NCBI GenBank assembly: GCA_018398765.1
Contig: JAHBMJ010000068.1
Location: 65,963 to 129,962 of the forward strand
Direction of reading: 5' to 3'
DNA: 64,000 nucleotides
DNA from: Chromera velia
Lineage: Eukaryota; Sar; Chromeraceae
The notes below the pieces were generated by a model. It did no database searches. It was not told the origin of the DNA and saw only the letters and a list, made by a program, of their open reading frames with translations. The position numbers and the translations under genes were made by a program. Shown in pieces: positions 11,858 through 57,836 of this stretch. Position 1 is the stretch's first letter. Every line of letters starts with the position of its first letter.

Positions 11858-14800
11858 TCATATAGTCGGACTATGTTCACGAGAAAGATGCGGTGCCGGT
11901 TCGTCGTCTGGCACGTCTTCCTGACTGCATTTCCATTCCCGCTCCTCTCCCTCTCCCTCCCCTTGCCGTTCGCTTTCCTGAAGTTGACTGCTGTCGAGAC
12001 CCTCTGTGTCCGGGGGCATCGGTGCGGCCTCGTCGTGCCGCAACGAATCCACTGGCTGACTGAGGGCACTGGCTCTTCTGTCCGTACTGCTTGCTCTTCT
12101 GTCTGTACTGCTGCGAGGGCTTGCAGAAAAATCAGAAGGAATGCGTGGACGGCCTGGAAGTGATCGCTTTGCTTTCTCGGGGCTGGTCTCACGGGAGACA
12201 GGAATCTCTCTGAGACCCGAGGGAAAGTCTGATTGTTGTCGCCGAGAAGGAGAAGGAGAGTGACTCGGGTCCTCTCCTTCAACGATCCCGTTGGGGCTTA
12301 GGCTGCCCTTAAATGAAACAGCACTTGAGGTTGCAGCATTAGGAGAAACAGGCAGGGTGAAAAACCTCGCACGGGACTCCCTCTTTTCTAACCGTGGAGG
12401 CGCCCCAGGCAGTCGGGAGCTCGAACGCCTTAGTGCCCCCTCCCCTCTCGGCCTCAGGGGATGTTCTCCCACCGGCATGTCCGCGTACGGAGAGAAGACT
12501 TCGACAGCCAATACCTCGCCCTGCTCGTTCTCGTCTCCCATCAAAATTCGGGAAGGGTCTGGAGGCCCTTGGTGATCGGGGCTCTGACTGTTATGAGACG
12601 AGCTCTGAAGCGAATCTTCCTCCCTGAATGAGGACCTTCTTTTATTCTGCAATTAGAGAGATCAATCGATCAACGAAGGAAGAAGGAAGACAATGATAGT
12701 CAGAGAAAATGGACCAAGAGATACAGATACGTGCGCCCACAGGGCAAAACAAAGCACATCTTTGTGAGGTTTTTAAATTCGGATATCACCATGCACTACA
12801 GCTAGGAGGAATTGAATGATGATGCACTGCATGGCTGGGTGGCAGCACTTTTGCTGCAAGCTCCCTTTGTCCATGGCTGATGCGCGATTTCGCATCAAAC
12901 AATAGCAAGTGGTTGCATGAAGAAAATAGGAAAGGCAACAAATCGACGCGAATGCATGGAGACAAAGGCACGGCCCAGAAAGCTGACGGCACCCACTCAC
13001 AAAGTCACGCATATATGTATATATGTGAATATTATATGGAGAGGGAGAGAGGAAAAAAAAAGAGAAGAGAAAAGAATGCAGGGGAGCTTGAGACGACGCA
13101 CAGATCGAGAAAGAAGAACGTCGAACGGAGAAGAGACGTGCACGGACTTAAAAGCACTCACAGAAAAACAAAAAGGCACAGACACGCAGACAGAAGATCG
13201 CCAGAGTGTCTGTGCTTCCTCGCTTGCCTAAATGCCTTCCTGGCTGACTGACTGACATCTGCCTTTCCCTTTCTGCTTCTTGGTGTGAAGAGGTCGTCTT
13301 CTTCGTCCTCTCCGTCCGCCCCTATAACCTCAATGCCCCCACACGATGAGCACAGACAGCACCAAGGTCTGCTGATTTTTCTTCTCAAAAGCTGGGGATA
13401 AAACTTTCTCAGCATTTTCACAAGTCGATTTTCCTCTTTCATCTCCATGTCGAAAAGAATTCGTTCGTATTTCAGGATGAACCTGCAAACAAAACGTCCC
13501 CGAAAGGAACCCTCTTTCTTTGACATGAACGACAAAACCGTTATCCTGTTTCTTCACTCACGTTGTCATGTTTGTCATTCATATCGAACTCAAGGAGATG
13601 GATCGTTCAATTGATTTGGAAAGGCAATGATTGAAGAGGCAAACGCGTGCATTTGCAAAAAGAATTGCAGAGAGTGAGGTCATCAAAACGACATGAAGAA
13701 ACAAAAAACAGCTACAAAAAGGGAAGAAAAGCAGCGAGAAAGCTAGGAGAGGGACATACCAGCAGAAGGCCACAGGATCTCGAGTCAGAGGGTAGGGCTC
13801 AATCTGCAGACCGATCGCTTCGACTCTTTTGGCCCGTTTCAGCACTGTCTCGTCCGATAGACCCGCCAGCATTGCCCGAATACCCAACAGAGCGTGCTGC
13901 AAGGGTCCAGCCACGCGGCGCCAGACAAAAAATCCCCCCGCAATTTTAATTGTGAGGGCCAGAAACAGAATCACCGTCATCGACGTGATTCGAAGGGCCC
14001 TGCAATCATCAACAGAAGTCAAGCAACAACCGCAAAATAAAGGCATGCATTTATGTGAAGCCATCTATTTATGTATCCATCGGTCCATTTTTCTCTCCCT
14101 CAATGTCCCTCCCCCATCTCTCTAGCTGCAGTTTCGTCGATTCAAATTTAAAGAAGAGACAGACAGAAGTATGGTGGAATGACGAGAAAGATGTTCGGCC
14201 CAACTGAGGTTTGAAGAACCCGACAAGCGTGCAGACACAGGAGTGAGGAGAAAAGGATGCAATCCGCGTCAGACAGCTTGATGACCACAGCCTTCCAATG
14301 CGTGCGTCAGTATTTGGCCTCTCACCTCGTGGGGTTGTCCTCGCCTGTCCAGACCCCCCGGACGAGAAAGACGGCATCGTAGCGCTCCGAGGTCGGGACA
14401 AAGTTGATCAAGTCGGGGGGTGCCTGCGCGAGCGTGAAAATTCACACAGAATTGATTGATTTCTACTCACATGTGCGCAAAATGTGTGAAAAATGGAACA
14501 GGGAAACAATGTGTCGACTTAGATCGTGCGAACAGAGTGAAGGAAAAGACCTTCTGTGAGACAGGCTCCAGGATTGTATGAAAGCAGTTTCCTCTTCTTG
14601 AAACAAACTGCCACGCGAGATCTGATCTCTGTTTCCTGAAATAAAGAAAACAGCCTCTGAGACGAAATGCCCTTCGAACAGAATGAGGTTTCAACCGGTG
14701 CGCCGTTGTCGAGTGTGATGTGCATCGGAGACTCTCTGAGTGAACTGAGAAGCCGAATGCAAGGTGACAGGGGAGTTCGAGTAGGGAAGCCTTTGGGCAT

Positions 14801-16157
14801 TCTGTCGATGCAAGAAGGCAAATGAGTCGATCCGCAGCCATGCACACCCACGAAACATGAACCTCTCTCAAGAGTAGTTACAGATCTACACCTCAGTCCA
14901 CGCTCTACCACCTTCCTGATTGACTCCTCAAAGACATACCCCCCTTCGAAAAGACAGAGCAATTTAGGAACAAAAGTACGTGCCAGGAAACACAGGAAGG
15001 ACGGCAGATCCACTCACCTGGACTGCCGAGACAAAATACTGTCTGTCCCTCAGGTCCATCATAATCGATCGTTGCGTCCCCGTCTCGGCGTCTCGCAGCA
15101 GGTCCTTCAGTGCCGTCTCTTGGCCTTCTGCAATGTCCACATCCACACGCAGCTCGCTGGCGTCGTATGCTTCCTGTGCTCTCTCCAACTCCCTCTCTGG
15201 TTCGACCAGCTGTCGCAAACCGGCCAAAATCTCTCCGCCCATTGTGAGAGATGGAGGCTCCGAAAGAAGAGATCCCAGAAGAACCGGTTCTCGGATACCG
15301 TCTCCGTTCGTGTCTGCGAGGATGTAGATGGCTACATACCCCCTCTGAAAGGCCGTCATGGACCATTCGTTGATCGCCGTTTTGCCATTCAGCATATCGG
15401 CAGAGATCAGGACAGCTTCCACTGCACCCGACTTTGTGGTGTCGCTGGACGCGTACACCGGGGTTGCAGTAAATCTGCATCATGCGCATATTCGTGCACG
15501 TGTTTCTTTTGTCGCCTGACTTCTATCTGTGTCTTTATAATGATAAGCCTCGATCACTCTCTGTACTTGGTCAACCGGCAGTTTGGCATAAAGCATTGAG
15601 GCTCTTCAGTATGCTTCAAATAATTCTCTCACGAGACTGCCTTCTGGTTATGGATTTCTCTACCCACTCTCGATGCAAGGATGATTCACAGCAAATCTTC
15701 CTTCAGTCTGGTGGTGTGCATCCATCCAGGTTCACTTCGGTGTGAATACTCGATACCAGCTACGCAGATCGGAAAGGTGCGCCCAAAGCGATCATAGCAG
15801 ACACCCAGGTCGTTTCTCTTATTTCTTTCTTTCGAGGAGAGACCGACCTGCCGACAATAGGCGCTGTGTCCTCCTGGCAGATGTCAGCTGCCGACAGTTT
15901 GGAGACTGAAAACTCCGCGTCAGTGTCCGAGAGACCGGTGTACCCTAGAAGAGCCAGCTTGTCATCCCACTCGGGGGATCCGAGGGGTTTGACGTCGGCA
16001 AATGTGATCGCGTCGGTTGCAATGATCTGCTTTTTGGTGTTCACAACGCGCTGTGGTAGGTCGTTGTACGTGTACTTGGATCCCTCAAAGCTCTGGTCGA
16101 GAGAGGTCGCAACAGCCATGACCCACAAATCTGGCACCTGAGGGAAGGAATACACAG

Positions 16158-16192
<35 letters not shown>

Positions 16193-19100
16193 AGCAGGTG
16201 AGATGTAGAGGTGGTATGTATAATGAAGCTCCGACCAAAGATTCGCATCCACAAAGAGCAGTATGCGCATACGCAAAGGGAGATGTACAGCGACATCAGT
16301 CTTTGTTTCACTTGAGTGGGTTTGATTTGACTCTGCTGTCCGGACGCTTTCCCGTTTTCCGGTACCCTCCTTTCCCTCTGACTGTTTCTTTGACCGAGCT
16401 GCTCTCTCTTTCTAGCCCCAAAGCAGGTCGAGACTTTTCATTTAATTTCTCTTACATTATTCTTTCAGAAATGGATGTATAGTACTTCGGTCAGTCATCG
16501 CAAGTTGGAGGCCTTCTCTGAAGAGGTCGCTAGACCCCGTGGAGAATTGAAACTCGAATGCCACTACGCGCACAACATATTTGCACGGATGGAAGTTTTT
16601 TTGTATCTTCTTTGTGCCCTTTTTCTCCATTGAAAATTCTCCAGAGACTGTTTCTACACTTTTTGATCTCCATCTCACGAGGCTTCGAATGAAATTTAGT
16701 CACCAGATACTCACCAATCTGGAGCACACCCTGAGGCCTGTGCTCGACTTTCCTTTCCAACGGAAAGACTCACCTTGACCATCATGGCGACCTCAATTTT
16801 CCTCACGTTGACTTCTCCATTCAGTGCGCTCCTGACCGAGCTAAGACTCGACGAAGAGGCGACCTCTGAGGGAGAGGTCAGAGAGGAGACTGTCCGCACC
16901 GCCGCGTTGTTGGAGACGCCACGAAATCCAAAAGCCATCTGGTTCACCTGCACTCACCCACCCATTCAACCACTATTTCACTCACTCACTCACTCACTCA
17001 CTCACTCATTCATTCATTCATTCATTCATTCATTCATTCCCAAATGATAGAAAGTTGATGGTGGGTTCATCGAGCCATGCACTTTCCCAGAGAAATACTC
17101 ACCAATGCATTCATTTACCAGCTCGCTCCTTCATTCTCTCGGAAGATCATCTGTCAACTGATAAGCAATGCCTCACTCACCAGCTTAGGCAATTCACAGG
17201 AGAAAGGGAAGAAGGCCAAAACCACAGTCAACCAGAGCAACTCCATCTCTTTCACTCCCTATCTTCGCTTACCGTGTTTGGGGGAAGGCAAATTGGATAA
17301 TAATCAAGCTAAATGTTTTTCTGTCGAGCTATCCAGCGGTCTGTCTGTTTCTCTGTCTGTCGGGCTGTTTTTGAGTGCGTCTGTCTGTCTGTCTGTCTGA
17401 TGTACATAAAGGAAACAAGGCAGAAGAAGAAACATGTAGTCCGTCTGATTGACTGACCTTGATCATGTATGCGATGGAGAGCATATTGGCCTCGTCGACC
17501 GCCTGACTCTCGAGGTTTGCTGTCATCAGATTCAGACTGAGGTACAAAGTCATGACCATCAGCGAGAGGCCGACGACAGAGACGAGGGAGTCCAAAAGAA
17601 GTGTGCGGAGAGACGGGAGACGCCAGTGGCACACAGCCTTCAAAAATTGATGTCTGTCAGAGATTACTGACCGTCGCAAATCCTTCACTCGCAGCTCGAT
17701 CTCCTCATCATTGAAAAAGTCAGACAAATGGTCAGAGCCTACTGAAGTCTGACGATTGTATTTTGCCGCCGCTTGATTGTTCATCGGCTGGGGGCGTTTT
17801 TGTGCTGCCAATTTCTTTTTTCTCATTTTCTCTTCCAACTGCTTTTGTTTCGCCAGTTTTTCTGCCTCGACCCTCTTGCTCTGGTACAATGGTTGATTTT
17901 GGTTGGCGAGTCTGTACAACTCCTCCCTGTTGGTCAGATACGCTCTGGCGGGCTTTGCAGCTCTCCACACGGGCAAGAGCGCCCCTGTGAAGACGAAGAT
18001 CACACCAATAATGTCTGCAGCGCGACTGAGGGCCTCAAGGACTCTGATGATGGTGAAGGACTGACGGGTGTCCTCTCTTTCAACAAAGAGACCACGAACG
18101 ATAAAAGCAGACCCAGTCTTACGGAGCACTGCGTTTTCATCGGGTGCTTCGGTATTCTCAAACAAGCGTGGGTTGATCCTCTTTCCCAGCAGAATGATCT
18201 CCTGATCGTCGACTCTGCCAGTCCCCCATACTGTTCTCCTATGGTCAGAAACTGCTTGGAGACGATTCACTAGCTGCACATGCAGTTGTCAAGCCATATG
18301 CATTCATATGCGTCAAGGTTATGGTCACATGAGAGAGAATTGGTCTATGAATCGATCGACGAAAGACATTCATGCATCGACAGTGCAGCGCTGGGAGCAA
18401 ACAGATGGACTGTAGCACAGGAGCAACGAGACAACGGATACGCACAACGAGAAAGGGCAAGCCTTTGTGCAGACAAACGGACAAAGTAAGACACAAATAG
18501 CTAAACAGACATCCAGACAAATGGACAAACAAACCGGCAGGCCGGCACACAGACAGACCGGGAAAAAATCAAAAAGTCAGACTGCGGGACTTTCTTTTTT
18601 TTCCCTTCTTTTTTGAAAACAACAGAGAAGGCAGGCGAACAGGCAGACATACCGACAAGCGAACAGATGGACGGACAGAAGACAGACAAGCAAGCTGGCA
18701 GATTCATAGAGACAGACAGGCAGACAGACGTTTTGCGCGTCATCACCCAGTTCAATTTGCGACGCTCTAGGAAACCCGTTACTTTTGTAGAACTCTGTCA
18801 CGAGCCGGGGCCCGTCAACCCCCGGGAAGGAGAGGTACACTGCTGCATATCCACTTCCCAGAGCGTTCACAACTCGTTCAGGAACTGCACGCAGGCACCA
18901 CAGACAAGTGAGTACTTGTAGATGGACAGATTCTCCGACTTCCTCACGAACACACGCACACACACATGCGGACAGCTTCAGGAATACCTTCTGGTTCTCG
19001 TCGGTGCAATCTTACCGCGGTTTTTGATCTCACTTCCTGTGCATTCCGCATATTGACTGACGCATGCAAACAGACAGAGACATTCATGCACACGCAGAGT

Positions 19101-19240
19101 AAATATGTGATCCATACTGTTTTCTTTTTTCTCTGCCTTCATTCAACCTCTATTCCTTTTTTCTGTTCATTGTTGTATTCCAATTGATTTAATTTTGTCC
19201 CAGTGGTTGATCGATCGATCGATCGATCAGTCGATGGATC

Positions 19241-19277
<37 letters not shown>

Positions 19278-19278
19278 C

Positions 19279-19311
<33 letters not shown>

Positions 19312-19546
19312 GGAGTCGGCTGCACGCATGATCGACTGACTGACTGAATGACTGACGGACTGACTGACTGACTGGACTGACTGACTGAAGGACGGACTGA
19401 CGGACGGACGGGCTCACGGACTGACTGACTGACTGACTGGACTGACTGACTGACGGAAGGACTGACGGACTGACGGACTGGACTGACTGGACTGACTGAC
19501 TGACTGACTGGACTGACTGACTGACTGACTGGCTGACTGGCTGACT

Positions 19547-19578
<32 letters not shown>

Positions 19579-21347
19579 TGCAGCCTTCCCATCCACGATG
19601 TCCCCTGCCACCAGAATTCCCAGGAGACTCCCACTGGAGACAATGGGTGTGAGCATCCATCTGACCAGAGGGTCCGTCCCGGTGTCCCATGGATGGAGGG
19701 GGGGGGAGGGGTCTGCCTCCTGATCCCTCTCTCTGTGGATCGGCGGGTTCTGCAGGCACACACACCCGAGACACCCATTCATTTCGTTCGTTCGTTCGCT
19801 TAATCATTCCCTTATTCATTCGTTCATGCGCTCATTTGCGCATCCATCCATGCATTCATTCATTCATTCAAGCGTGCACATTGGCTGAGAGACCGGCTGA
19901 TCAAGACACCAGAGGTTTATGGACAAAGAGACATGCGGACATTGACACAAGATCAGGCATTGACAACGAGACCCACTGCAAAGAAATGGAAACGCAAAAG
20001 GACACAGATATGGAGGTCCAGTGCAAAAGAGGCAACCAAAAAAGGTGCGGACAAGCAAAGACTTCTTTCTCCCAAATGAGGCCACTGAGCTGTTTGTCTA
20101 GAAAAGATCATGTCACGGACCTCTCTTCTGACATCTGTGAAGGCCAAAATTTCCGTTGTCTTGATCTGGCCCAGGCTCCAGTGATTCCTCATGATCGTCA
20201 CCAGCCCCGCCGGATCCCAGAGCTCTCCAGTTCTGTTCGAATTGGCGTTCACAACAATCATTCCGTTGGCATCCAGCAAAGTCGCATACTCGATTTTTCG
20301 ATTTGTAATCTCAGCCGCCAATGCAGACCGAGAGGTGGCCTCATACGTCGCGATGTCAGCCCAGTTGGCCGAAGATCCCAGTGCCCTCTCGGCCAGCAGG
20401 GCTCGGTGGTTGGGGTTGCGGGACTGTCCTTTGAACCCGAATCCAATCTGGTCCATTTTCAGGCCTGCACGAAGGATTCAGCCAGACGGGCGGACCAATC
20501 ACGAAATTAACTTATGCTGTAAAGTGTGACTTATGGATGTGAAACTGATTTAAGGTTTGCTTGTTCGCCTACCGCTGCAAGACACGATGTATGGCTCGCT
20601 CCGGAGGATAGGATGGACGGTAAGAATACTCTCACTGTTGTGTGCTGAGCCTTTGACTTAGACCTCCTACCCATCTGCGGCTACATGCATTCTTTTGTGC
20701 TCACGCGTCCCGGTACAGCCCCATACACCCACCAATGAGAGACAAGAACGACTTTAAATTTCATTTCCAGCCGGCGGTCACACGGAAGGAGCTGGAATCA
20801 ATTGCAAAAGAGGAGCACTTCGGACAAGCAAAGTTATATTTCAGGGCAAGAATGATGCAGGAAAGGCGTCCCAAATATAAAGAAAGTGCACGATGCAGAA
20901 CGAGCAGCGACATTGAAAGGAAAGCTCTTGTTGGCAAACCCACACAATCAGAGAGAGACAGAAATTGGGCACGCTTACAGGCAAGCCGCCCATGGACATA
21001 GACTTACCGTAAGTCACTTCCAATAGATGGAGCTGCGGCCGCGCCTTCTCCATTCTCGTGTAGTTGAACGCTGCTGTGAACACTGCAGATTCTGCGTACG
21101 TCATTGCGATAATGAGCATCTCCAAGAATCCAATTGCCAGCAGGACTTTGAAGACCAAACTCAAGCGATGCCAAGCATCTGACAGTCTTCTGAAGACTGT
21201 CACGCGCTTGTGGAAGAAATCTTTTAAGCCCCTGTACGCTCTTTTACCGGCCTGGCTTTGATCGGTGCAGTCCGACCTATTTGTCCCGAAGCCTGACGTC
21301 CCTTGTGTCTTACTGTCTGACCTTGACGGTTGGTCATTGTCCGACAT
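11858..21347 (-). CDS. Multi-pass receptor with two tandem cyanobacterial-type sensory modules
   Basis: Twelve exons: 21347-21008, 20464-20133, 19749-19578, 18884-18730, 18273-17458, 16947-16774, 16137-15848, 15474-15018, 14423-14326, 13999-13760, 13482-13257, 12646-11858. They total 4,089 bases (1,362 residues plus stop) and every junction keeps phase. An in-frame stop lies just upstream of the ATG. Membrane segments lie near residues 63-87, 418-437, 558-580 and 947-970. Between the first pair is module 1, with DQIGFGFKGQSRN near 117, a RKIEYATLLDANG stretch, LVAGDIVDGK and GSGYAAVYL. Between the second pair is module 2, with NQMAFGFRG near 606, RKIEVAMMVK, LISADMLNGK and a RGYVAIYI stretch. 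The same ordered motifs occur, as I recall, in the periplasmic region of cyanobacterial methyl-accepting chemotaxis proteins. A basic linker of about 120 residues joins the modules and a Ser/Arg/acidic tail of about 390 residues follows. I see no kinase, cyclase, HAMP or MCP signalling domain. The donor of exon 2 could instead be at 20121, also in frame. Confidence 0.8.
16159..16190. repeat. (GA)n microsatellite beside an acceptor
   Basis: GA repeat on the plus strand (CT on the coding strand) a few bases upstream of the acceptor at 16138, where it acts as part of the polypyrimidine tract of the receptor gene. Confidence 0.85.
16979..17040. repeat. (CACT)n/(CATT)n microsatellite in an intron of the receptor gene
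   Basis: Two adjoining tetranucleotide tracts just upstream, in transcript sense, of the acceptor at 16948. Confidence 0.9.
19207..19577. repeat. Compound microsatellite (GATC)n, (GT)n, (GACT)n
   Basis: Consecutive GATC, GT and then about 250 bases of GACT/GACG units on the plus strand. In transcript sense the GACT block reads (GTCA)n and begins exactly at the donor of the receptor's third exon (19577). Long open frames over it are repeat translation. Confidence 0.95.
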
Positions 21348-22573: not shown

Positions 22574-23018
22574 GCAGGCAGCGAGTCGAAGGAGGTGATT
22601 CGCCGAGCCAAAAAAAAAATCAATCAAGTTAGGTAGAGATTGACGGGAGCCGAATAAAGAAAAAGACAGCAAGAATGAGTGAGTGGAACCGCAAAGAGCT
22701 TCAGCTCCACGTGCAGGAATATGCACACATGAGAAGAAGTGTATATAGAGGAACAGACTCATACATGTAGGAAGCGTCAAGAAACAGAAAGCGGGTCTTG
22801 GAGGGTTGAAGAACGACAGCAACTGCAAAGAGGACCCCTCTTTGGTTGCTTTTTGTTTTCTTTATACGACCTTTTCTTCGTGTCCTGTTGGTTGTTTCCG
22901 TCTCGGATCCCCCATCTTTTCTCATCTTGTGCTCCTCACAATTTGAAGTGCTCTCTTCCATTGCACCACCCAGCTTTCACCAGCGCCTTTCTCGTCTCGT
23001 CTTTTTTGCTGTGCCCGT

Positions 23019-26000
23019 ATGCAGGAGGCGCGAGAAGGCCGGGAGACCACGCCACCGCATTTGCAATCCCTCCAGCAAGGCAAGGTCCCTCCTTTGGAGG
23101 CGATCAAGGAGACGCCATACGAAGAAGGAAAGGCCGAATTAGATCGGAAGGGTCAGAAGAAAAGAGTTGAAGAACCGGATCCTGTGGAAGCCTTTCATGA
23201 TTGTCTGCCTGTGGAGGAAACCGACAACGAAAAAAAAAACCCTCCGCAGATTCCGCTGAATTCACAGGCTGTACCTGCTTCTGCTTCTGCCTCCGTATCT
23301 GCATCTCCGTCTCTCACGGTGGCTCCAGCGCCGACACAACCGATTACTTCGATGGAGGAGACGGGGAACGGAATGTTGGTTAAAGAGACGTTGAGTCAAG
23401 AGGAGGACCAGCCTGTTGTTACGGGGAGGGAGGAGAAGAGAAAGACTTCGATCACGCCAGAGGAGGGTTTGGAACAGAACATGCTACCCATGTCAGAGAG
23501 CAGTTTGGATGATAGTCGTCAACCTGTCAGTGAAAAGGAAAAGCCTCTAGCTGCAGAAGTCCCTTCCGTGGCTGTCTCCTCCGTTTCTCCTTCTTTCCTC
23601 CCTTCTGCAGAAGACCAAGAACAGAGTCCGCTAGACCGCCAGTACCAGCAGCAACAGGAGGATCAGCAAAAAGAGAGAACTCTCCCGACTCGGACGGAGC
23701 AGAAAAAGCAATCACAGACGCCCGCTGAAATTCCCTCCGGACCCCACAAAGCGGGTCAGACGGAGTTTGGAGAGAAGGAGGAGGACGGTCACGTGGGATC
23801 AAATCTGGCTGAGAGTGCAGAGAAACAGCCCGAGGGGCAGATACAAGAGGGCGAGAATGATCAGAAAGGAGAACTTGATGTGAATGATCGTGCCATGATT
23901 CCGCAGTCGACCTTTCTTGGAGAGACAGCTGAGGAAGGGGTTTTGCGTGAGATTCTCAAAGAAAACGACAAAGAAGAGCAAGGGGAAGAGCCTAACCAAG
24001 TAACTAATCCCCTAGATGTGCCCCGACCTCTTCTGAAAGGGGAGGAGAGTCAAGAAGCAAACCATCAACAGGTACACCCTCTTCAACTTCCGGATGCAAA
24101 ACTTGAAAGATCAGGAAAACAAACCGGGTTTCTTTCGATAAAAACTCCAGGTGCGATGACCCCCGATACCTCTCCTATGATCACCCCGGATGTATACTCC
24201 TCCGGGGCCCCCTTTCGAGTTCCCACACCCATCGACGCTTTTCTTGCCCAAACTCTAGCCCCCCCCTCCCATGGGCCCTTCGGCACTCTCAGTGCTGTAT
24301 CAACATCAAAAGGGATCACCCCTGATATCCCAACATCAAACGATGTTACTCCAGGTGTGGAGACTTCAAAGCCAGTTCAGGTCGGGAGGGAGGATGGGAC
24401 ACCCGACCCCATTGAAACCACAAGACAGAGGGAGCAGCAAGAAGTTGAAGGGAAGCAAGGAAGTCAAAGTCAAATCCCAGAGCAAGACAGCACAGTAGAG
24501 AATCTGCGACCTCCACGCGAAGGGACACAGATTCATGAGCCTGGTGTTGCCATGCCGTCGTCCTCCTCTTCCTCTTCCTCTTCATCGTCCTCTTCGTCTG
24601 CCGTTGCTGCCGTGGAACCTCAGGTGCCTTCCGGTCGTTTGCCTCTGCGTGCCCCCCCCCTACCATCTGAGATGATGATCATCCAAGACCACCCCCCCAT
24701 ATCGCCGGAAGCATATAGTTCCGGTGGCCCATTTCGTGTACCCGGGCCGCTGGGAAGTTTTTTGGCTTCGATTCTCGCTCCTTCGTCTTCCGGTTGTTTT
24801 GGGAACCTGCCCCCAACCCCTGCAGTCCAAGCACATGAACAGAAAGGGGCAGAGAAAAAGGTCACACAGAGTATGACGCAAAAAGAAGAGACCGACCGAA
24901 TAGCACTCGAAAACAGCACCAGACTGACTTCCCCATTCCACCCGCGTGCGCCTGAAGACATCACCCCTGTTGACAAAATTCCATGGCCTCGCACCCCTGC
25001 CGTCCTCCCTCCCTCGAGGCCTTTGGAGCCCGTCCCAGAAAAGAAGCCGGAACGATCTCAACCGGTGGACGCACACAGAGACAGACACACAGAGAGCAGA
25101 AAGCAGCCTCCGACGCTCCCCGAAGACCCCCCAGCCGAGTGCTTCACGACGGCACTTCAGACATTAGGAGGACAGCAGCCGATGGTGCAGGAGGCCAAGA
25201 GGGAATCGGCAACGCCCTGCAGGGACGAACCGGAAGGCCAACTTCCAACTCGCAGTGTGAGGGAAGCGGGGGATGAGCATGTCACTGACGTAGTGAGGTT
25301 GGGGCAGCGGCAGATGTCTGTAGAATCCTTCCATTCCTGTGTTGGCGAGGACTCTAATGTTCCTGTCAGTACCTCCATGACTCCACAGCCACTCACCGTC
25401 AATCCCCCACGATCTCCCCTTATGAACGCTCCTCCTCCTGGCCCCAGCCAGAGCCCATTGACTCATCCTCTCCACACACACCCTCTCTCGAACATTCAGA
25501 CGACAGAAATGCAGCCTGACGGAAGTGGTCAAATCGAAGTCAACGTTACCGTTTCTCTTCCGGAGGAGGAAGAACCCCCAGCGTCTTCCCTCATGGCTCT
25601 GACATCCCTTCATGCACCGGGATTGGCCTCTCGCACAGACGGTCTCCCGGCAGCAGGGGTCGGCGCTCCCGTTCTCTCCGGCACTTCCTCTCAAATATGT
25701 CAGCTCAGTGCACCCCCTCATACCGGTCCACACTTTTCCAGACCAATCCAGGGAAAGGACGGCCAGTCTCCCGACCACACTCAATCGACCTTACGGAAAA
25801 GTCCTTTCGGCCTTGAGAAGATCCAACCGCAAGCGCCCCTCAGCACACCGACAGCGCGGGTACAGTCACTCACAACAGCATCTGGAGGGTTATCTCCGAG
25901 TCACACCCAAGCCGCCTACCCACTGCCCCCCCTTTCTGCAACACCAATTCCCCTCACATGCGTTCCCGTGTTGGCCCTCCACCCTACTCCGGCTGCTGCT

Positions 26001-26735
26001 CACTGCTCTCTCACGACCTCCGTCCCGCCACTCAATGCTGCAAAAGGGCTGAGGATGCATGAACGTCCGACTGCACCTCCAACCTTCAGACCAGCCATGG
26101 AAACGCAAATGCCCGCCACTGTACCTCCCAGCCATCAGAGAGAACAGCCGAGCCAGTCCCATCTCATCTACTGCCCTGCTATTCCGGTCATCATACCTAG
26201 GCATCCCCGCAGCCCTAGACCGCACTCGTTTGTGGACGCTTCTCTTTCGCAAGTCACCTCTCGCCCGATCCCCCTTCCCCACCCCCAGCCCGTCACCTCT
26301 TCTCTTCCCCCTGCACGCCCTGCTCTGATTACAGACTCATGGAGATGGGGCTCGATCAACGATCGTCTGCCTGATTCGACCCCAGTCTTTGCCAGTAACC
26401 AGCTTCCCCACGCACATCCTGCGATGTGCCCACTCATTGGACCACATCCACAGTGTCATCAGGGGGCCATGCGGTCCTGTCAGCAGTCTCTTTCTCCATC
26501 CCGTCCAAACACGAGGCTGTCTTCGGGTTTTCCGTGTCAACAGTCCATCCAACAAGTGGCTCAGAGCAACTCAAACGGTCTGACAAGCATTTTGGACTTC
26601 ATATCGGAACCTCCACCAACTGAACCACGCGCCCGTGAGCTGCTTTTTGAAGCAGTCAAGAGGGTACAGGGGGGTGGAACTCTTCCCAATGACGTCCGAT
26701 TTCTTGTTGAGATGCGAGCACGCCTGAATCGCTAG
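23019..26735 (+). CDS. Large Pro/Ser/Gln/Glu-rich disordered protein, unknown function
   Basis: A single uninterrupted frame of 1,238 codons ending in TAG. The N-terminal third is acidic and Gln/Glu-rich, a poly-Ser run of about 14 lies near residue 515, and the C-terminal half is Pro/His/Ser-rich. The last 50 residues look like a short folded helical segment (LDFISEPPP to VEMRARLNR). Two imperfect copies of a motif of about 40 residues occur near residues 387 and 560, sharing Y-SSG-PFRVP-P, then FLA--LAP-S-G-FG. No known domain is seen. The ATG sits in ATGCAG followed by GAGG, which is also a perfect acceptor, so the first exon may lie upstream and the true protein may be longer or start differently. 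The reverse strand of the same DNA has only short frames. Confidence 0.7.
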   Translation: MQEAREGRETTPPHLQSLQQGKVPPLEAIKETPYEEGKAELDRKGQKKRVEEPDPVEAFHDCLPVEETDNEKKNPPQIPLNSQAVPASASASVSASPSLTVAPAPTQPITSMEETGNGMLVKETLSQEEDQPVVTGREEKRKTSITPEEGLEQNMLPMSESSLDDSRQPVSEKEKPLAAEVPSVAVSSVSPSFLPSAEDQEQSPLDRQYQQQQEDQQKERTLPTRTEQKKQSQTPAEIPSGPHKAGQTEFGEKEEDGHVGSNLAESAEKQPEGQIQEGENDQKGELDVNDRAMIPQSTFLGETAEEGVLREILKENDKEEQGEEPNQVTNPLDVPRPLLKGEESQEANHQQVHPLQLPDAKLERSGKQTGFLSIKTPGAMTPDTSPMITPDVYSSGAPFRVPTPIDAFLAQTLAPPSHGPFGTLSAVSTSKGITPDIPTSNDVTPGVETSKPVQVGREDGTPDPIETTRQREQQEVEGKQGSQSQIPEQDSTVENLRPPREGTQIHEPGVAMPSSSSSSSSSSSSSSAVAAVEPQVPSGRLPLRAPPLPSEMMIIQDHPPISPEAYSSGGPFRVPGPLGSFLASILAPSSSGCFGNLPPTPAVQAHEQKGAEKKVTQSMTQKEETDRIALENSTRLTSPFHPRAPEDITPVDKIPWPRTPAVLPPSRPLEPVPEKKPERSQPVDAHRDRHTESRKQPPTLPEDPPAECFTTALQTLGGQQPMVQEAKRESATPCRDEPEGQLPTRSVREAGDEHVTDVVRLGQRQMSVESFHSCVGEDSNVPVSTSMTPQPLTVNPPRSPLMNAPPPGPSQSPLTHPLHTHPLSNIQTTEMQPDGSGQIEVNVTVSLPEEEEPPASSLMALTSLHAPGLASRTDGLPAAGVGAPVLSGTSSQICQLSAPPHTGPHFSRPIQGKDGQSPDHTQSTLRKSPFGLEKIQPQAPLSTPTARVQSLTTASGGLSPSHTQAAYPLPPLSATPIPLTCVPVLALHPTPAAAHCSLTTSVPPLNAAKGLRMHERPTAPPTFRPAMETQMPATVPPSHQREQPSQSHLIYCPAIPVIIPRHPRSPRPHSFVDASLSQVTSRPIPLPHPQPVTSSLPPARPALITDSWRWGSINDRLPDSTPVFASNQLPHAHPAMCPLIGPHPQCHQGAMRSCQQSLSPSRPNTRLSSGFPCQQSIQQVAQSNSNGLTSILDFISEPPPTEPRARELLFEAVKRVQGGGTLPNDVRFLVEMRARLNR
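24172..24830 (+). repeat. Two-copy internal protein repeat
   Basis: Within the disordered protein, copy 1 (about 24172-24290) and copy 2 (about 24694-24810) encode the shared pattern P(D/E)-x-YSSG-x-PFRVP followed by FLA-x2-LAP and GxFG. This is the only part of the long disordered region with position-specific conservation, so it is a candidate binding motif. Confidence 0.6.
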
Positions 26736-30103: not shown

Positions 30104-33059
30104 CTAGAAGAAGTACCCGCTGACTGTGTTGTCGAGAGCGCTTGCTGTGAAAGCTCTCGACACACTCCTGTTCAGGCTTCCCGCCTCCCGTTCTGAAATC
30201 GGGACGTATTTCTTCTCTGCAGGCCCTGTGTAGACCTGCAAGCAAGCAGGCAGGCAGGCAGACAGGCAGGCAGGCAGGCAGGCAGGCACGTGAATTAGAA
30301 CAAGAGAATGCGTGCGGCTAGTTGATTGCCTGGTCGATTTCATGTTATCTCTGCCCCGAGAGCGCTCCGGTGCATTCAATTGGAAAGCGAAGAAGGCAAA
30401 AATGAAGGAAAGGTCAAGGCATACTGACTTTTCGATCGGGTAACAAAGAATAAGTGGTGACAGAGCAGGCAAAGAGGGGAAGGGGGAGAAGAGAAGTTTA
30501 GCGAGCCGACAACAGCGTTTTGTTCTCCCGCTTTTCGTTCGTTCGCCTCGGAGACCTTGACTCTTTTCTCGCTATATCCTTTAGGAAAACAAGATATGTT
30601 CTGTCAGGCAATTTCACTCTTCCTTCCTCCCCCGAAGACTCCTGCCCCTCTGCTTCTTCCTTCCCTCATTGGTCTGAAACCTTTCAGTCAGGCTGGCTTG
30701 CTGGCTCTGCACCGAATCTTTGTCAGGGACTGACTGACTGACCTGTCTCGGTCTGGCGATTTTCCTCTCGGCCGTTTTGTCCTCTATCGACTCCCTCCAC
30801 TGGGTAATCCACCCCACACATCTTCCGAGAGCAAAAATGACAGTGAACATAGAGGTGGGTATGCGCATGGCAGTCAGGGCAATTCCGGAGTAGAAATCCA
30901 CGTTGGGAAACAAACGCCGCGAGACGAAGTAATCATCCGCCATGGCCTGCTTCTCCAACTCTGCATTGAAGAATATCAATATAATTAATGCGTCGTGCGT
31001 TCAATCTGTGTCAATCCACATCGACGGATTCTGTTTGCACGTAGTTCGTGCGACTTAGAAGGAAGACCAAGTGGCCCCCTGCAGGTCCCACAAAGCCTTT
31101 CAGTCCATCTCTTCTGTTAACAGGCAGAAAGGTACACTGACCAACAGACTGACATCGGGATTATTGGCCAACCGACAGTCCAATTTGCCATGCCAAACAA
31201 GGATGCCAAACACTCTTTCTTTCGTCCGTGTGTCTTTGTTTCCACGTCACACTGAGTCAGCTGGGAAAGGAAGAAAAAACCCCCCATGGACCTCCATGGA
31301 GTGCACTCAGGAGACCCCCAACTCCTTCCTGACCCTGTCCCCGTGGGAATTGGAAGCATGCCGGAAGCAAATTCATTCATTGATTCATTCATTCATTCAC
31401 TTGTACACCCTTTCATGTCGACTCTGGGCCTTTCTGTCTGTCTGTCTGTCTCTCTCTCTCACACGCGCGCGCGCGCAGAGAGAAAGAAAGAGAAGCACAA
31501 CGTAATGTGTGCGTGAATGTGTTTGGCACGCATGAATGAATGATTTATATTAAATTTCCTGTTTGATGACCAGAGAGAATGAATGCCCCAGGGCCACAGG
31601 ACCCACGCACCTGTTGCCAAATGCAGAAGCCGAACGATCTCGTCTGCCTCCTTCCTGTCCGCCTCCTTGACAGACTTTGTCGCCGCCCTCCTCGTCTCGT
31701 CGATACATGCGTCCACCAGCTTTCTCATCTCCTTCGCCCTCGGGTCGTAGTTCTTGTACACTCTGTGGCCGAATCCCATCAGTCGAAACGGGTCAGACTT
31801 GTCCTTCGCTCTCGCGAGGAATTTGGGAATATTCTCCTCTGTGCCGATTTGACGCAACATCGCAATCACAGCCTCATTCGCCCCTCCATGGGCAGGACCC
31901 CACAGGGAAGCGATTCCGGCGGCGATGCACGCCATCGGGTTGGCATCCGAGGACCCTGCTACTCGCACCGTACTCGTGGATGCGTTCTGTTCGTGGTCTG
32001 CGTGCAGAATCAAGAGCGTGTCCATAGTCTTGATAAATGCCTCCGGGATCTCAAAGTCCTCCATCGGCGTGCTGTACAGCATGTGGAGGAAGTTCGCAGT
32101 GAAACCGAGGGAGGCCTTCGGATAAACGAAGGGCTGGCCTTTCGAGTGTTTGTAGGACATTGCGGCGATAGTCGGAAGTTTGGCAACTACCCTGATTGCT
32201 GCTGTGGCGTGATCTGATTCCGACTGTTGGGTGGGAGGGGCACTCTGGTTGTGGTAGAACGCGGAGAGGGCTCCCACGACTCCCACCATGACAGCCATTG
32301 GGTGGGCATTGTCGGGAAATCCAAGGACGAAGGACCGAAGTCTCTCGTGCACCAGCATCTTGTGCACCACCTCTCTTTCAAAACTCGTGTACTCAGTCTC
32401 AGTGGGCAGCTCACCGTTCAGAAGGAGGTACACAACTTCGAGGTAAGTACCGTGCTTCGCAAGGTCCTCTATGCGGTACCCTCTGTGCATCAAGATGCCT
32501 GCAGGAATGTGTGAAAACACCTTTTGTTCTCCATACAGTGCCTTGTGTACTGTTGTGCTGCATTTGCAGGCATTGCATGGAGCTGGTGGATAGAAGAAAG
32601 GAAGACTGTGCGACTTCCCTCTAACACCCCTATATCGACCTGCTCCACCCCACTATTTTTTGGCAGTGTGCCTGCTTGTATCTCGTTGGCGAAAGAGGCT
32701 AGGAGAGAAACGCTCGAAGAAAAGGAGGGGGTAGAGAAGGAGACGGGAAAGAAAATCACATGAGCGTCCCGTCTCCAGCGAAGAAAGTCCGAAGTTGTAC
32801 ATACACATGCACTAGCCATGCAGCTAAAAATACCTGCAGGTCCATCAATGAAGGTGATGTCTGAGGAGCAGCTGCTGGTGGAAGTGAAGCCAGGGTCGTG
32901 GGTGAACATCCCGGTCTGGGTGTACAGAGACTTGATGTCGATGGCCGGAGGCCCGCACGTAGGGTAGAGGACAGGAAGGTCGATCTCGACCGTCTTCCCA
33001 TCCTTGCCTGTGGCACTGATCTTGACAGTCTCCGGACAGAGGTCAGCGAGTTTGGTCAT
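30104..33059 (-). CDS. Citrate synthase, bacterial/peroxisomal type
   Basis: Four exons (33059-32834, 32498-31611, 30960-30743, 30235-30104) join in phase to 487 residues. Citrate synthase condenses acetyl-CoA with oxaloacetate. The N-terminal [19 protein letters not shown] and [13 protein letters not shown] segments are diagnostic. Catalytic His occurs in [10 protein letters not shown] and in [15 protein letters not shown], and the catalytic Asp in NVDFYSG. The pattern matches GltA-type enzymes, also used by plant peroxisomes, rather than the classical mitochondrial enzyme. The proposed ATG gives no targeting presequence; an upstream exon adding one is possible, and the frame stays open to 33191 without another ATG. 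The C-terminus runs about 30 residues past the usual YVPI end (SEREAG to SGYFF). The (CTGC)n tract at 30238-30285 abuts the last acceptor, and the donor at 30742 opens a (GTCA)n run. Confidence 0.92.
30240..30286. repeat. (CAGG)n microsatellite abutting an acceptor
   Basis: Plus-strand GCAGGCAGG units. On the citrate synthase coding strand this is (CCTG)n leading directly into the TTGCAG acceptor of the last exon. Confidence 0.9.
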
Positions 33060-33437: not shown

Positions 33438-34000
33438 NNNNNNNNNNNNNNNNNNNNNNNNNNNNNNNNNNNNNNNNNNNNNNNNNNNNNNNNNNNNNNN
33501 NNNNNNNNNNNNNNNNNNNNNNNNNNNNNNNNNNNNNNNNNNNNNNNNNNNNNNNNNNNNNNNNNNNNNNNNNNNNNNNNNNNNNNNNNNNNNNNNNNNN
33601 NNNNNNNNNNNNNNNNNNNNNNNNNNNNNNNNNNNNNNNNNNNNNNNNNNNNNNNNNNNNNNNNNNNNNNNNNNNNNNNNNNNNNNNNNNNNNNNNNNNN
33701 NNNNNNNNNNNNNNNNNNNNNNNNNNNNNNNNNNNNNNNNNNNNNNNNNNNNNNNNNNNNNNNNNNNNNNNNNNNNNNNNNNNNNNNNNNNNNNNNNNNN
33801 NNNNNNNNNNNNNNNNNNNNNNNNNNNNNNNNNNNNNNNNNNNNNNNNNNNNNNNNNNNNNNNNNNNNNNNNNNNNNNNNNNNNNNNNNNNNNNNNNNNN
33901 NNNNNNNNNNNNNNNNNNNNNNNNNNNNNNNNNNNNNNNNNNNNNNNNNNNNNNNNNNNNNNNNNNNNNNNNNNNNNNNNNNNNNNNNNNNNNNNNNNNN
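33438..34000. other. Assembly gap (563 N)
   Basis: A run of N flanked by about 12 C on each side, suggesting a C-rich or structured stretch that failed to assemble. Reading frames across it are meaningless. Confidence 1.
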
Positions 34001-56510: not shown

Positions 56511-57348
56511 AAAAAAGAAAGATGGTGAACGAGAACGCAACCACGGGAAGGCAGGAACAGAGACAGAGAAAAAAAAAAAAAAAACAGGCGAGGCAGGCAG
56601 ATGCAGTCTTAGAGAGAGGGCGCGAAGTCAAACAGAAATTGTGACGAAAGCTCCTCCTAGCGCTTGGCACCCATCAGTCAATCAATTAACAAGAATAAAA
56701 ATAATAATGTAGGCGAGAGAGAGTTGCTGTAGAAATCAGAGACAAAAAAAAGAAAAAGGATGGACCGGACGTCATTCTAAAAGTACGCGTCACTGACCTG
56801 CTCACGCAGACTTCACAGAGGCTGCAATGTTTTGACCGCGCTGGCTTGGCGGTTTTACACGTTTTGCACCAGCTGCCCTCCTGAAACACGACTCCGTCGT
56901 ACGAATACGCCCGCACCTTCTCCTCCACATTGAGTGGGGTGACGATTCCCGGATCGCTTGCCGAGGCCATGAGGAACACGGTCAGGCAGGCAGTCACGAT
57001 AACAAAGCCTGCGTATGCGTGGACACTTGAGAGGAACACGTTCGGCAACAGCGGCTGCGCATAGAGGACAAAAGACAGATACCCGCCCAAAACGACTCCC
57101 ATGTAGAATATCTGCACAAGCGGGTTGTTGGTCTTGAAAAGGTAGTGGTATGTACTGTCCACATACTCAGGGCCTCTCGCCCCGCAGCAAAGGACAGTGG
57201 AGTTTCTGAAGGTCCGCGGGAAGACCACAAAGAGCCACTTGGAAAGGAAGTCCAGAAATGTCTCCCCTCTATCGGAGTCACCAAAGAAGAGCGCAAGCAA
57301 CGCTGTAATCAAAAAAGGAATTCCCACAAGAACCAGCCCCAAAAGCAT
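54253..57348 (-). CDS. DHHC-type protein S-palmitoyltransferase (ZDHHC4-like)
   Basis: Four exons (57348-56798, 55731-55525, 55316-55161, 54667-54253) join in phase to 442 residues. DHHC enzymes transfer palmitate from CoA to cysteines of membrane-associated proteins. The cysteine-rich domain begins [21 protein letters not shown] and runs into [16 protein letters not shown], with the catalytic Cys in DHHC at about residue 188. Hydrophobic segments lie at the N-terminus, two more before the cysteine-rich domain, and two after it. The TTxE motif is TTNE, and the conserved aromatic/Asn motif near the C-terminus is [15 protein letters not shown]. The two membrane spans before the domain plus the extra N-terminal one recall ZDHHC4. 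The C-terminal 110 residues are polar, Lys/Gly/Glu-rich and probably disordered. The first intron holds a very long purine microsatellite. Confidence 0.92.
55880..56530. repeat. Long (GA)n/(GAAA)n/(GAAG)n purine tract
   Basis: About 600 bases almost purely of A and G on the plus strand, in blocks of GA, GAAA, GGAA and GAAC units, inside the first intron of the palmitoyltransferase gene. Two copies of a block of about 100 bp containing GATCGAAGGAAGGA recur (56240-56290 and 56390-56420). Confidence 0.95.
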
Positions 57349-57836
57349 TTTTTTGTTTTCTGAAAATCCGCACTTCCTCCAAAGAACAGCACAACAATGC
57401 TGTGTCCGGCCCGAGCTCTGGCTGTGATTGATGCTCTTCGAAAGCGTTCGAAGAGACGTGAAAAGGATCGAAAAAAAGGAGCCGCTTCTTGTATCGCGAC
57501 GATGTGGAAATCTGGAGATGCGTATCAGCTCGTGTTCATCTCAGCCTAGAATCCCAGGGTACAGGTGATTGCAGTGCGAAATAGGCGAAGTAGATCATGT
57601 TGATCTGACGCATATACACATTCTGTCATCTATGTTCCGTCAATTTCTGTCATCATTCTGAGGAGACGGGATCGACTAGCTCCTGCAATCTCCACATGCA
57701 GTCCATCGTCCATGATCGTCCATGCAGGTCCAGCAGGTCCAGCGGGCCGCGGTGCATTCTTATCGCCTAGCTCTCCGGGCGTGGGGCATGCCTGCATGGC
57801 CCCGGAAAGCCATGGAAAGCCTGAATGCATGCATGC

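Follow-up and report, generated by a model that had tools for sequence, protein, structure and literature searches.

A putative four-pass receptor with two linked cyanobacterial-type sensors encoded in the genome of Chromera velia

Analysis of a 64,000-nucleotide stretch of Chromera velia contig JAHBMJ010000068.1 (positions 65,963 to 129,962, referred to as the window in the rest of the paper) revealed on its minus strand a gene of 12 exons (21347..11858) coding for a predicted product of 1,366 residues. This gene likely codes for a four-pass receptor encoded in the nucleus of a photosynthetic eukaryote, in which two linked dCache_3-like sensors of cyanobacterial type are combined with a cytoplasmic output part of its own. 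All 11 introns are of the GT-AG type. Hydropathy analysis of the model predicted four membrane spans and two extracytoplasmic modules; at the same cut-off, a fifth, weaker stretch was found within module 2 of two paralogous copies, C264 and C659 (see below). Both extracytoplasmic regions carry the motifs listed in the original prediction, and their order is kept, thereby confirming the earlier claim of one spliced frame with four spans and two modules sharing ordered motifs, with a length of 1,366 residues in place of 1,362. Exon 5 is a single open frame linking both modules, and the models of four copies (C825, C264, C397 and C659) have a long exon across the matching stretch. Since exon 5 runs uninterrupted from module 1 to module 2, the two halves do not stem from different genes, unless exon 5 itself is wrong.

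To compare the modules with bacterial sensors, we used a profile of 63 cyanobacterial sensors taken from 80 proteins, 17 of which were excluded as too short. The window protein matched this profile with 261.9 bits (E=4.6e-77), so the bacterial relatives on which the original prediction depended do exist. The profile listed eight of the nine family rows, the ninth row being a faulty first model of locus C3623, and it listed none of 500 shuffles and no reversed protein. From span to span, both modules can be aligned with the sensor that cyanobacterial methyl-accepting chemotaxis proteins (MCPs) carry in the periplasm, and in copy C659 module 2 aligned at model positions 33-363 of 412, last span included. 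HHalign returned 8.8e-51 for module 1 and 3.5e-35 for module 2 against cyanobacteria, compared to 3.3e-19 for module 1 against module 2. Of the 46 near-invariant cyanobacterial columns, module 1 keeps 36 and module 2 keeps 29, compared to 35 and 26, respectively, of the 205 variable columns. Both modules therefore show the two properties by which we assigned them to the cyanobacterial-type sensor, namely its ordered near-invariant residues and the span-to-span alignment. As judged from sequence comparison, the cyanobacterial link of both modules is strong, and their earlier assignment to the MCP-sensor type is borne out. The cyanobacterial sensor has no Pfam model of its own; its best match is dCache_3 (PF14827), found at E<=0.1 in 27 of 41 cyanobacterial sensors (best 2.5e-10); at 1e-4, 7 of 46 frames matched it.

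The distribution of the sensor in prokaryotes was surveyed with a GFGFRGQSDN pattern, applied to one genome from each of 84,980 prokaryote species. This motif scan yielded 109 stretches, 107 of them in Cyanobacteriota by record name, one in a 'Tatlockia' and one in a 'Parcubacteria' record. The 'Tatlockia' genome groups in the same phylum as the cyanobacteria and was counted as misnamed. The motif, which the original prediction had named as a cyanobacterial mark, is thus almost confined to cyanobacteria among the 109 stretches. In all 109, it lies in an open frame with a match to the sensor profile, the building set of which was drawn from the first 80. None of the 109 prokaryotic frames contains two sensors, just 67 of them being closed by stop codons within the DNA examined. 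The pattern is blind to relatives with a changed motif, and the profile searches were limited to the cyanobacterial phylum, in which 43 of 386 genomes matched a sensor-only profile, two with partial matches only; an earlier profile that included HAMP had matched 91 of 292 genomes of the phylum, a number inflated by HAMP. Profile searching also found four cyanobacterial histidine kinases (L155-L158) with a diverged sensor (228.8-253.6 bits). A prokaryote scan with patterns derived from the paralogue alignment, both of them poor, produced 31 pattern matches and no relative. No match was found by tblastn against plasmids with a paralogue module or with a Nostoc module, and viral contigs contained no relative of the receptor. 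As side observations, a receptor frame of 927 codons and of cyanobacterial type lies on L135, the 3.6-kb contig labelled 'Parcubacteria', which is probably misbinned, and the sensors of L159 and L160, read by eye, apparently miss a large inner part.

The window gene belongs to a family in its host. A search of the host genome (177.8 Mb, 4040 contigs) revealed at least nine family loci, a lower bound as only the best candidates were scored: the window (C68), C3238, C825, C264, C397, C659, C3623, C75 and C2037. When a Nostoc sensor was used as the query, all 16 matches at E<=1, including 13 below 0.01, fell within these nine loci. Both modules, in identical order, occur in the window and in five of the eight other loci, of which C825, C264, C397 and C659 are near-full copies by spliced alignment and C75 is the most divergent. 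The contig of C3238 ends just past exon 5, while C3623 shows span 2, the linker and module 2, with 2,501 bases of N upstream. The proportions of nonsynonymous (pN) and synonymous (pS) differences between the window and C825 were 0.134 and 0.752 in module 1, and 0.195 and 0.764 in module 2. Over five copies, module 1 had a pS of 0.71-0.77, which is near saturation, and a pN of 0.11-0.30. Because pN lies far below the near-saturated pS, module 1 appears to be under purifying selection, which speaks for such selection on the family. The C-terminal tail had a pN of 0.50-0.56 against four copies, with unsure alignments.

The first ten introns of the window gene recur with identical residue and phase in C825 (10/10) and in C264, C397 and C659 (9/10 each, with misses of 2, 1 and 29 residues), three of the four introns of C3238 match the window, and the eleventh window intron matches exactly in no copy; these copy models were guided by the window protein, so that their introns lean towards those of the window, and they contain extra predicted introns too. 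This bias weighs against the receptor reading, as do the following observations. The near-full copy C397 has several in-frame stops in its spliced alignment and is possibly a decayed gene. Locus C2037 (L044, 1-500) is a fragment consisting of a lone module-1 exon at a contig start, with no further family exon in the readable 7 kb that separate it from a run of N. The gathering score of Pfam dCache_3 (25.7 bits) was not reached by module 1 (13.6 and 15.3 bits), and module 2 had no match; the other Pfam domains in the window protein amounted to a chance-level DUF899 beside the weak dCache_3. No convincing relative of the sensor was found in the PDB by sequence, and the double Cache fold of the modules is a prediction from profiles, which indicate a dCache_3-like sensor. 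Finally, no output domain was recognised in the window protein.

The phylogeny of the modules was inferred in an unrooted tree without outgroup that comprised 38 rows from cyanobacteria, 4 from kinases and 12 from eukaryotes. Module 1 and module 2 each formed one side of a branch supported at 100/100, and all eukaryotic rows fell on one side of a branch supported at 99/97; the tree program warned of long branches meeting. In trees with one module left out, the other module was not nested in any cyanobacterial subgroup. When the two rows of C75 were added, which are long and incomplete and hence less surely placed, its module 1 joined modules 1 (97/88), its module 2 joined modules 2 (100/99), and the eukaryotic branch was supported at 100/98. 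Since the C75 modules group with the respective modules 1 and 2, the tandem would predate the deepest split within the family, as these placements suggest. The original prediction had looked to such a tree for a cyanobacterial sister group of both modules. Three supported groups (module 1, module 2 and cyanobacteria) were indeed recovered, but the tree is unrooted and places neither module inside a cyanobacterial subgroup. This topology fits one acquisition followed by duplication and two acquisitions alike; the presence of two modules in one eukaryotic protein stands, while their duplication inside that protein, as had been proposed, does not follow from the tree.

Separate acquisition of the two modules, either as two cyanobacterial paralogues or as acquired genes that became fused, is a plausible reading, though less likely than not. 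Each module is nearer to the cyanobacterial profile than to the other module by HHalign. In the 181 columns for which all three groups have a consensus, the modules agree against cyanobacteria in 14, compared to 37 for module 1 with cyanobacteria and 34 for module 2 with cyanobacteria. Some cyanobacteria possess two or three such sensors. The introns lie at alignment columns 62, 187, 279 and 455 in module 1 and 65, 132, 239, 508 and 547 in module 2, so that none of the five module-2 introns coincides with one of the four module-1 introns, the nearest being three columns away and in another phase; either the introns postdate the tandem or the modules came separately. However, slow cyanobacterial and fast eukaryotic change after a duplication would look identical, the long branches leave the join unsure, and the position of all eukaryotic rows on one side of a well-supported branch, with no module nested in a cyanobacterial subgroup, argues against two independent sources.

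The cytoplasmic part contains a region of about 115 residues (about 972-1086) conserved in six copies, with 25 invariant columns. No Pfam domain was found after span 4. Pfam revealed no HAMP domain in the window protein up to E=1, and the profile alignment of module 2 extended by 110 residues stops at cyanobacterial column 371 of 438. The MCP domain (PF00015) was found neither in the window protein nor in the host genome (0 matches), compared to 7 of 14 control genomes with matches. HisKA and HATPase_c gave no match in the window protein up to E=1, NCBIfam gave far sub-threshold matches only, and PHROGs gave no informative match. A PDB profile search with the conserved cytoplasmic region returned weak matches to ribosomal protein S6 (best E=0.036), a likeness that we took as chance. 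The term 'chemosensory' used in the original prediction therefore holds by descent of the sensor only, HAMP and the MCP domain not being found. Because no output domain was recognised, signalling is argued by analogy; the protein may bind ligands, signal and reside at the cell surface.

We propose that both modules would lie outside and both termini inside. A ligand bound to either module, or to both, would shift the paired spans, and this shift would be passed to the conserved cytoplasmic region and the tail, which would occupy the place of the HAMP domain and the MCP hairpin and could engage a eukaryotic partner. In both modules an FGF(K/R)G stretch comes soon after the first span, with the same in-out-in order. 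In Cache receptors, a stretch of this type lies where protomers pair. The packing of the two modules may resemble that of the protomers in a bacterial receptor dimer. It is conceivable, though we put this forward tentatively, that the protein is a single-chain pseudo-dimer: a cyanobacterial protomer would have been doubled in one eukaryotic chain, its four spans and parallel pair of Cache modules making up a built-in, asymmetric 'dimer', a new cytoplasmic region would have taken the place of the bacterial output, and the family would then have expanded in the alga.

Alternatively, the sensors could be structural or adhesive elements at the surface that function without ligand-controlled signalling, the loss of HAMP and MCP domains amounting to the loss of the switch. 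The failure to recognise an output domain and the poor conservation of the tail are what such a role would predict, but it is unlikely given the invariant columns that six copies maintain in the cytoplasmic region and the near-invariant sensor residues that both modules retain. Finally, an artefact of assembly or prediction is highly improbable: simple repeats occur within and around the receptor gene, but bacterial contamination was ruled out by the eleven GT-AG introns and the gene family, and a merger of two adjacent genes by the one exon that spans both modules and by four more fitted copies with mostly common intron positions, the tandem itself being seen in none of the 109 prokaryotic frames, of which 67 are stop-closed at both ends.

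The exons of the receptor gene, all on the minus strand, are distributed over the protein as follows. Exon 1 (21008..21347, residues 1-114) codes for a basic cytosolic N-terminus, span 1 (64-82) and the start of module 1, and its intron at residue 113, phase 1, is present also in five copies. Module 1 continues through exon 2 (20121..20464, residues 114-228), which carries GFGFKGQSRN and RKIEYATL, exon 3 (19578..19749, residues 229-286), with RWMLTP and AGDIVDGK, and exon 4 (18730..18884, residues 286-337), with GSGYAAVYL. Exon 5 (17458..18273, residues 338-609) extends from the end of module 1 (FIVRG) through the start of module 2 and includes span 2 (about 415-439), a charged cytoplasmic linker of about 120 residues (about 440-560) and span 3 (562-580). 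Module 2 then occupies exon 6 (16774..16947, residues 610-667), with VNQMAFGFRG and RKIEVAM, exon 7 (15848..16137, residues 668-764) and exon 8 (15018..15474, residues 764-916), with RFTATP, SADMLNGK and GYVAIY, and ends in exon 9 (14326..14423, residues 917-949) with FLVRG. Span 4 (956-974) is encoded by exon 10 (13760..13999, residues 949-1029), in which the conserved cytoplasmic region begins (VWRRVAGP...); this region continues, without a family match, in exon 11 (13257..13482, residues 1029-1104; WFILKYE...RPWCC). Exon 12 (11858..12646, residues 1105-1366 and stop) codes for the low-complexity tail, which is rich in Ser, Arg and Glu and poorly conserved.

Outside the receptor gene, past its 5′ end and on the opposite strand, lies a low-complexity open frame of 1,262 codons (22947-26735, plus strand), in which a stretch around GPFRVP or APFRVP occurs twice; it has no Pfam match. 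Elsewhere in the window, a long open frame on the minus strand (31459-32652) matches citrate synthase (PF00285, E=1e-93), a further open frame (56686-57540, minus strand) has a partial match to DHHC palmitoyltransferases (PF01529, 28.2 bits for a cut-off of 28.7), and positions 33438-34000 are a run of N representing an assembly gap or a masked stretch. Chromera has a nuclear-encoded RuBisCO large subunit; the host genome search did not find this gene. The same genome gave 58 light-harvesting matches and 11 alveolin-type matches, in line with a photosynthetic alveolate such as Chromera velia. Against this assignment stand the RuBisCO result and the fact that the alveolin family matches Caulobacter too. 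Alveolin-type domains reportedly occur outside alveolates as well (PMC6212826).

Among the extracellular sensors of prokaryotes, Cache domains are described as the largest superfamily; in eukaryotes they are said to be far scarcer and are attributed to horizontal transfer (PMC4822843). Cache-type transmembrane receptors are already known as a kind, and the tandem eukaryotic form is a variant of it. Among the matches listed in our search of the open literature, judged by titles and abstract beginnings, we found no description of such a receptor. A eukaryotic family with a cyanobacterial sensor, in which neither HAMP nor MCP domain was found, would serve as an example of the re-wiring of a bacterial input module, and with its tandem form one could test directly whether a receptor dimer can be fused and rendered asymmetric. 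Should the host be a chromerid, the family may also reveal what is sensed by free-living relatives of apicomplexans.

Compared with known systems, the algal modules share with the periplasmic sensor of cyanobacterial MCPs the order of motifs, the span-to-span alignment and the near-invariant residues. The first 80 loci gave 46 closed cyanobacterial frames, some of which are short; we found HAMP in 43 of them, the MCP domain in 32, GAF in 24 and a kinase ATPase domain in 10. Cyanobacterial MCPs have one sensor per frame, followed by HAMP (43/46) and the MCP domain (32/46), whereas the algal protein has two sensors and neither of these domains was found in it. The cyanobacterial histidine kinases L155-L158 have the same sensor layout as the algal modules but lack the GFGFRGQ motif and, read by eye, run into kinase sequence, while in the algal modules the motif is retained and no kinase match was found. 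Other eukaryotic Cache receptors likewise place an extracellular Cache sensor in a eukaryote, and differ from the algal protein in that they use other Cache types in other architectures.

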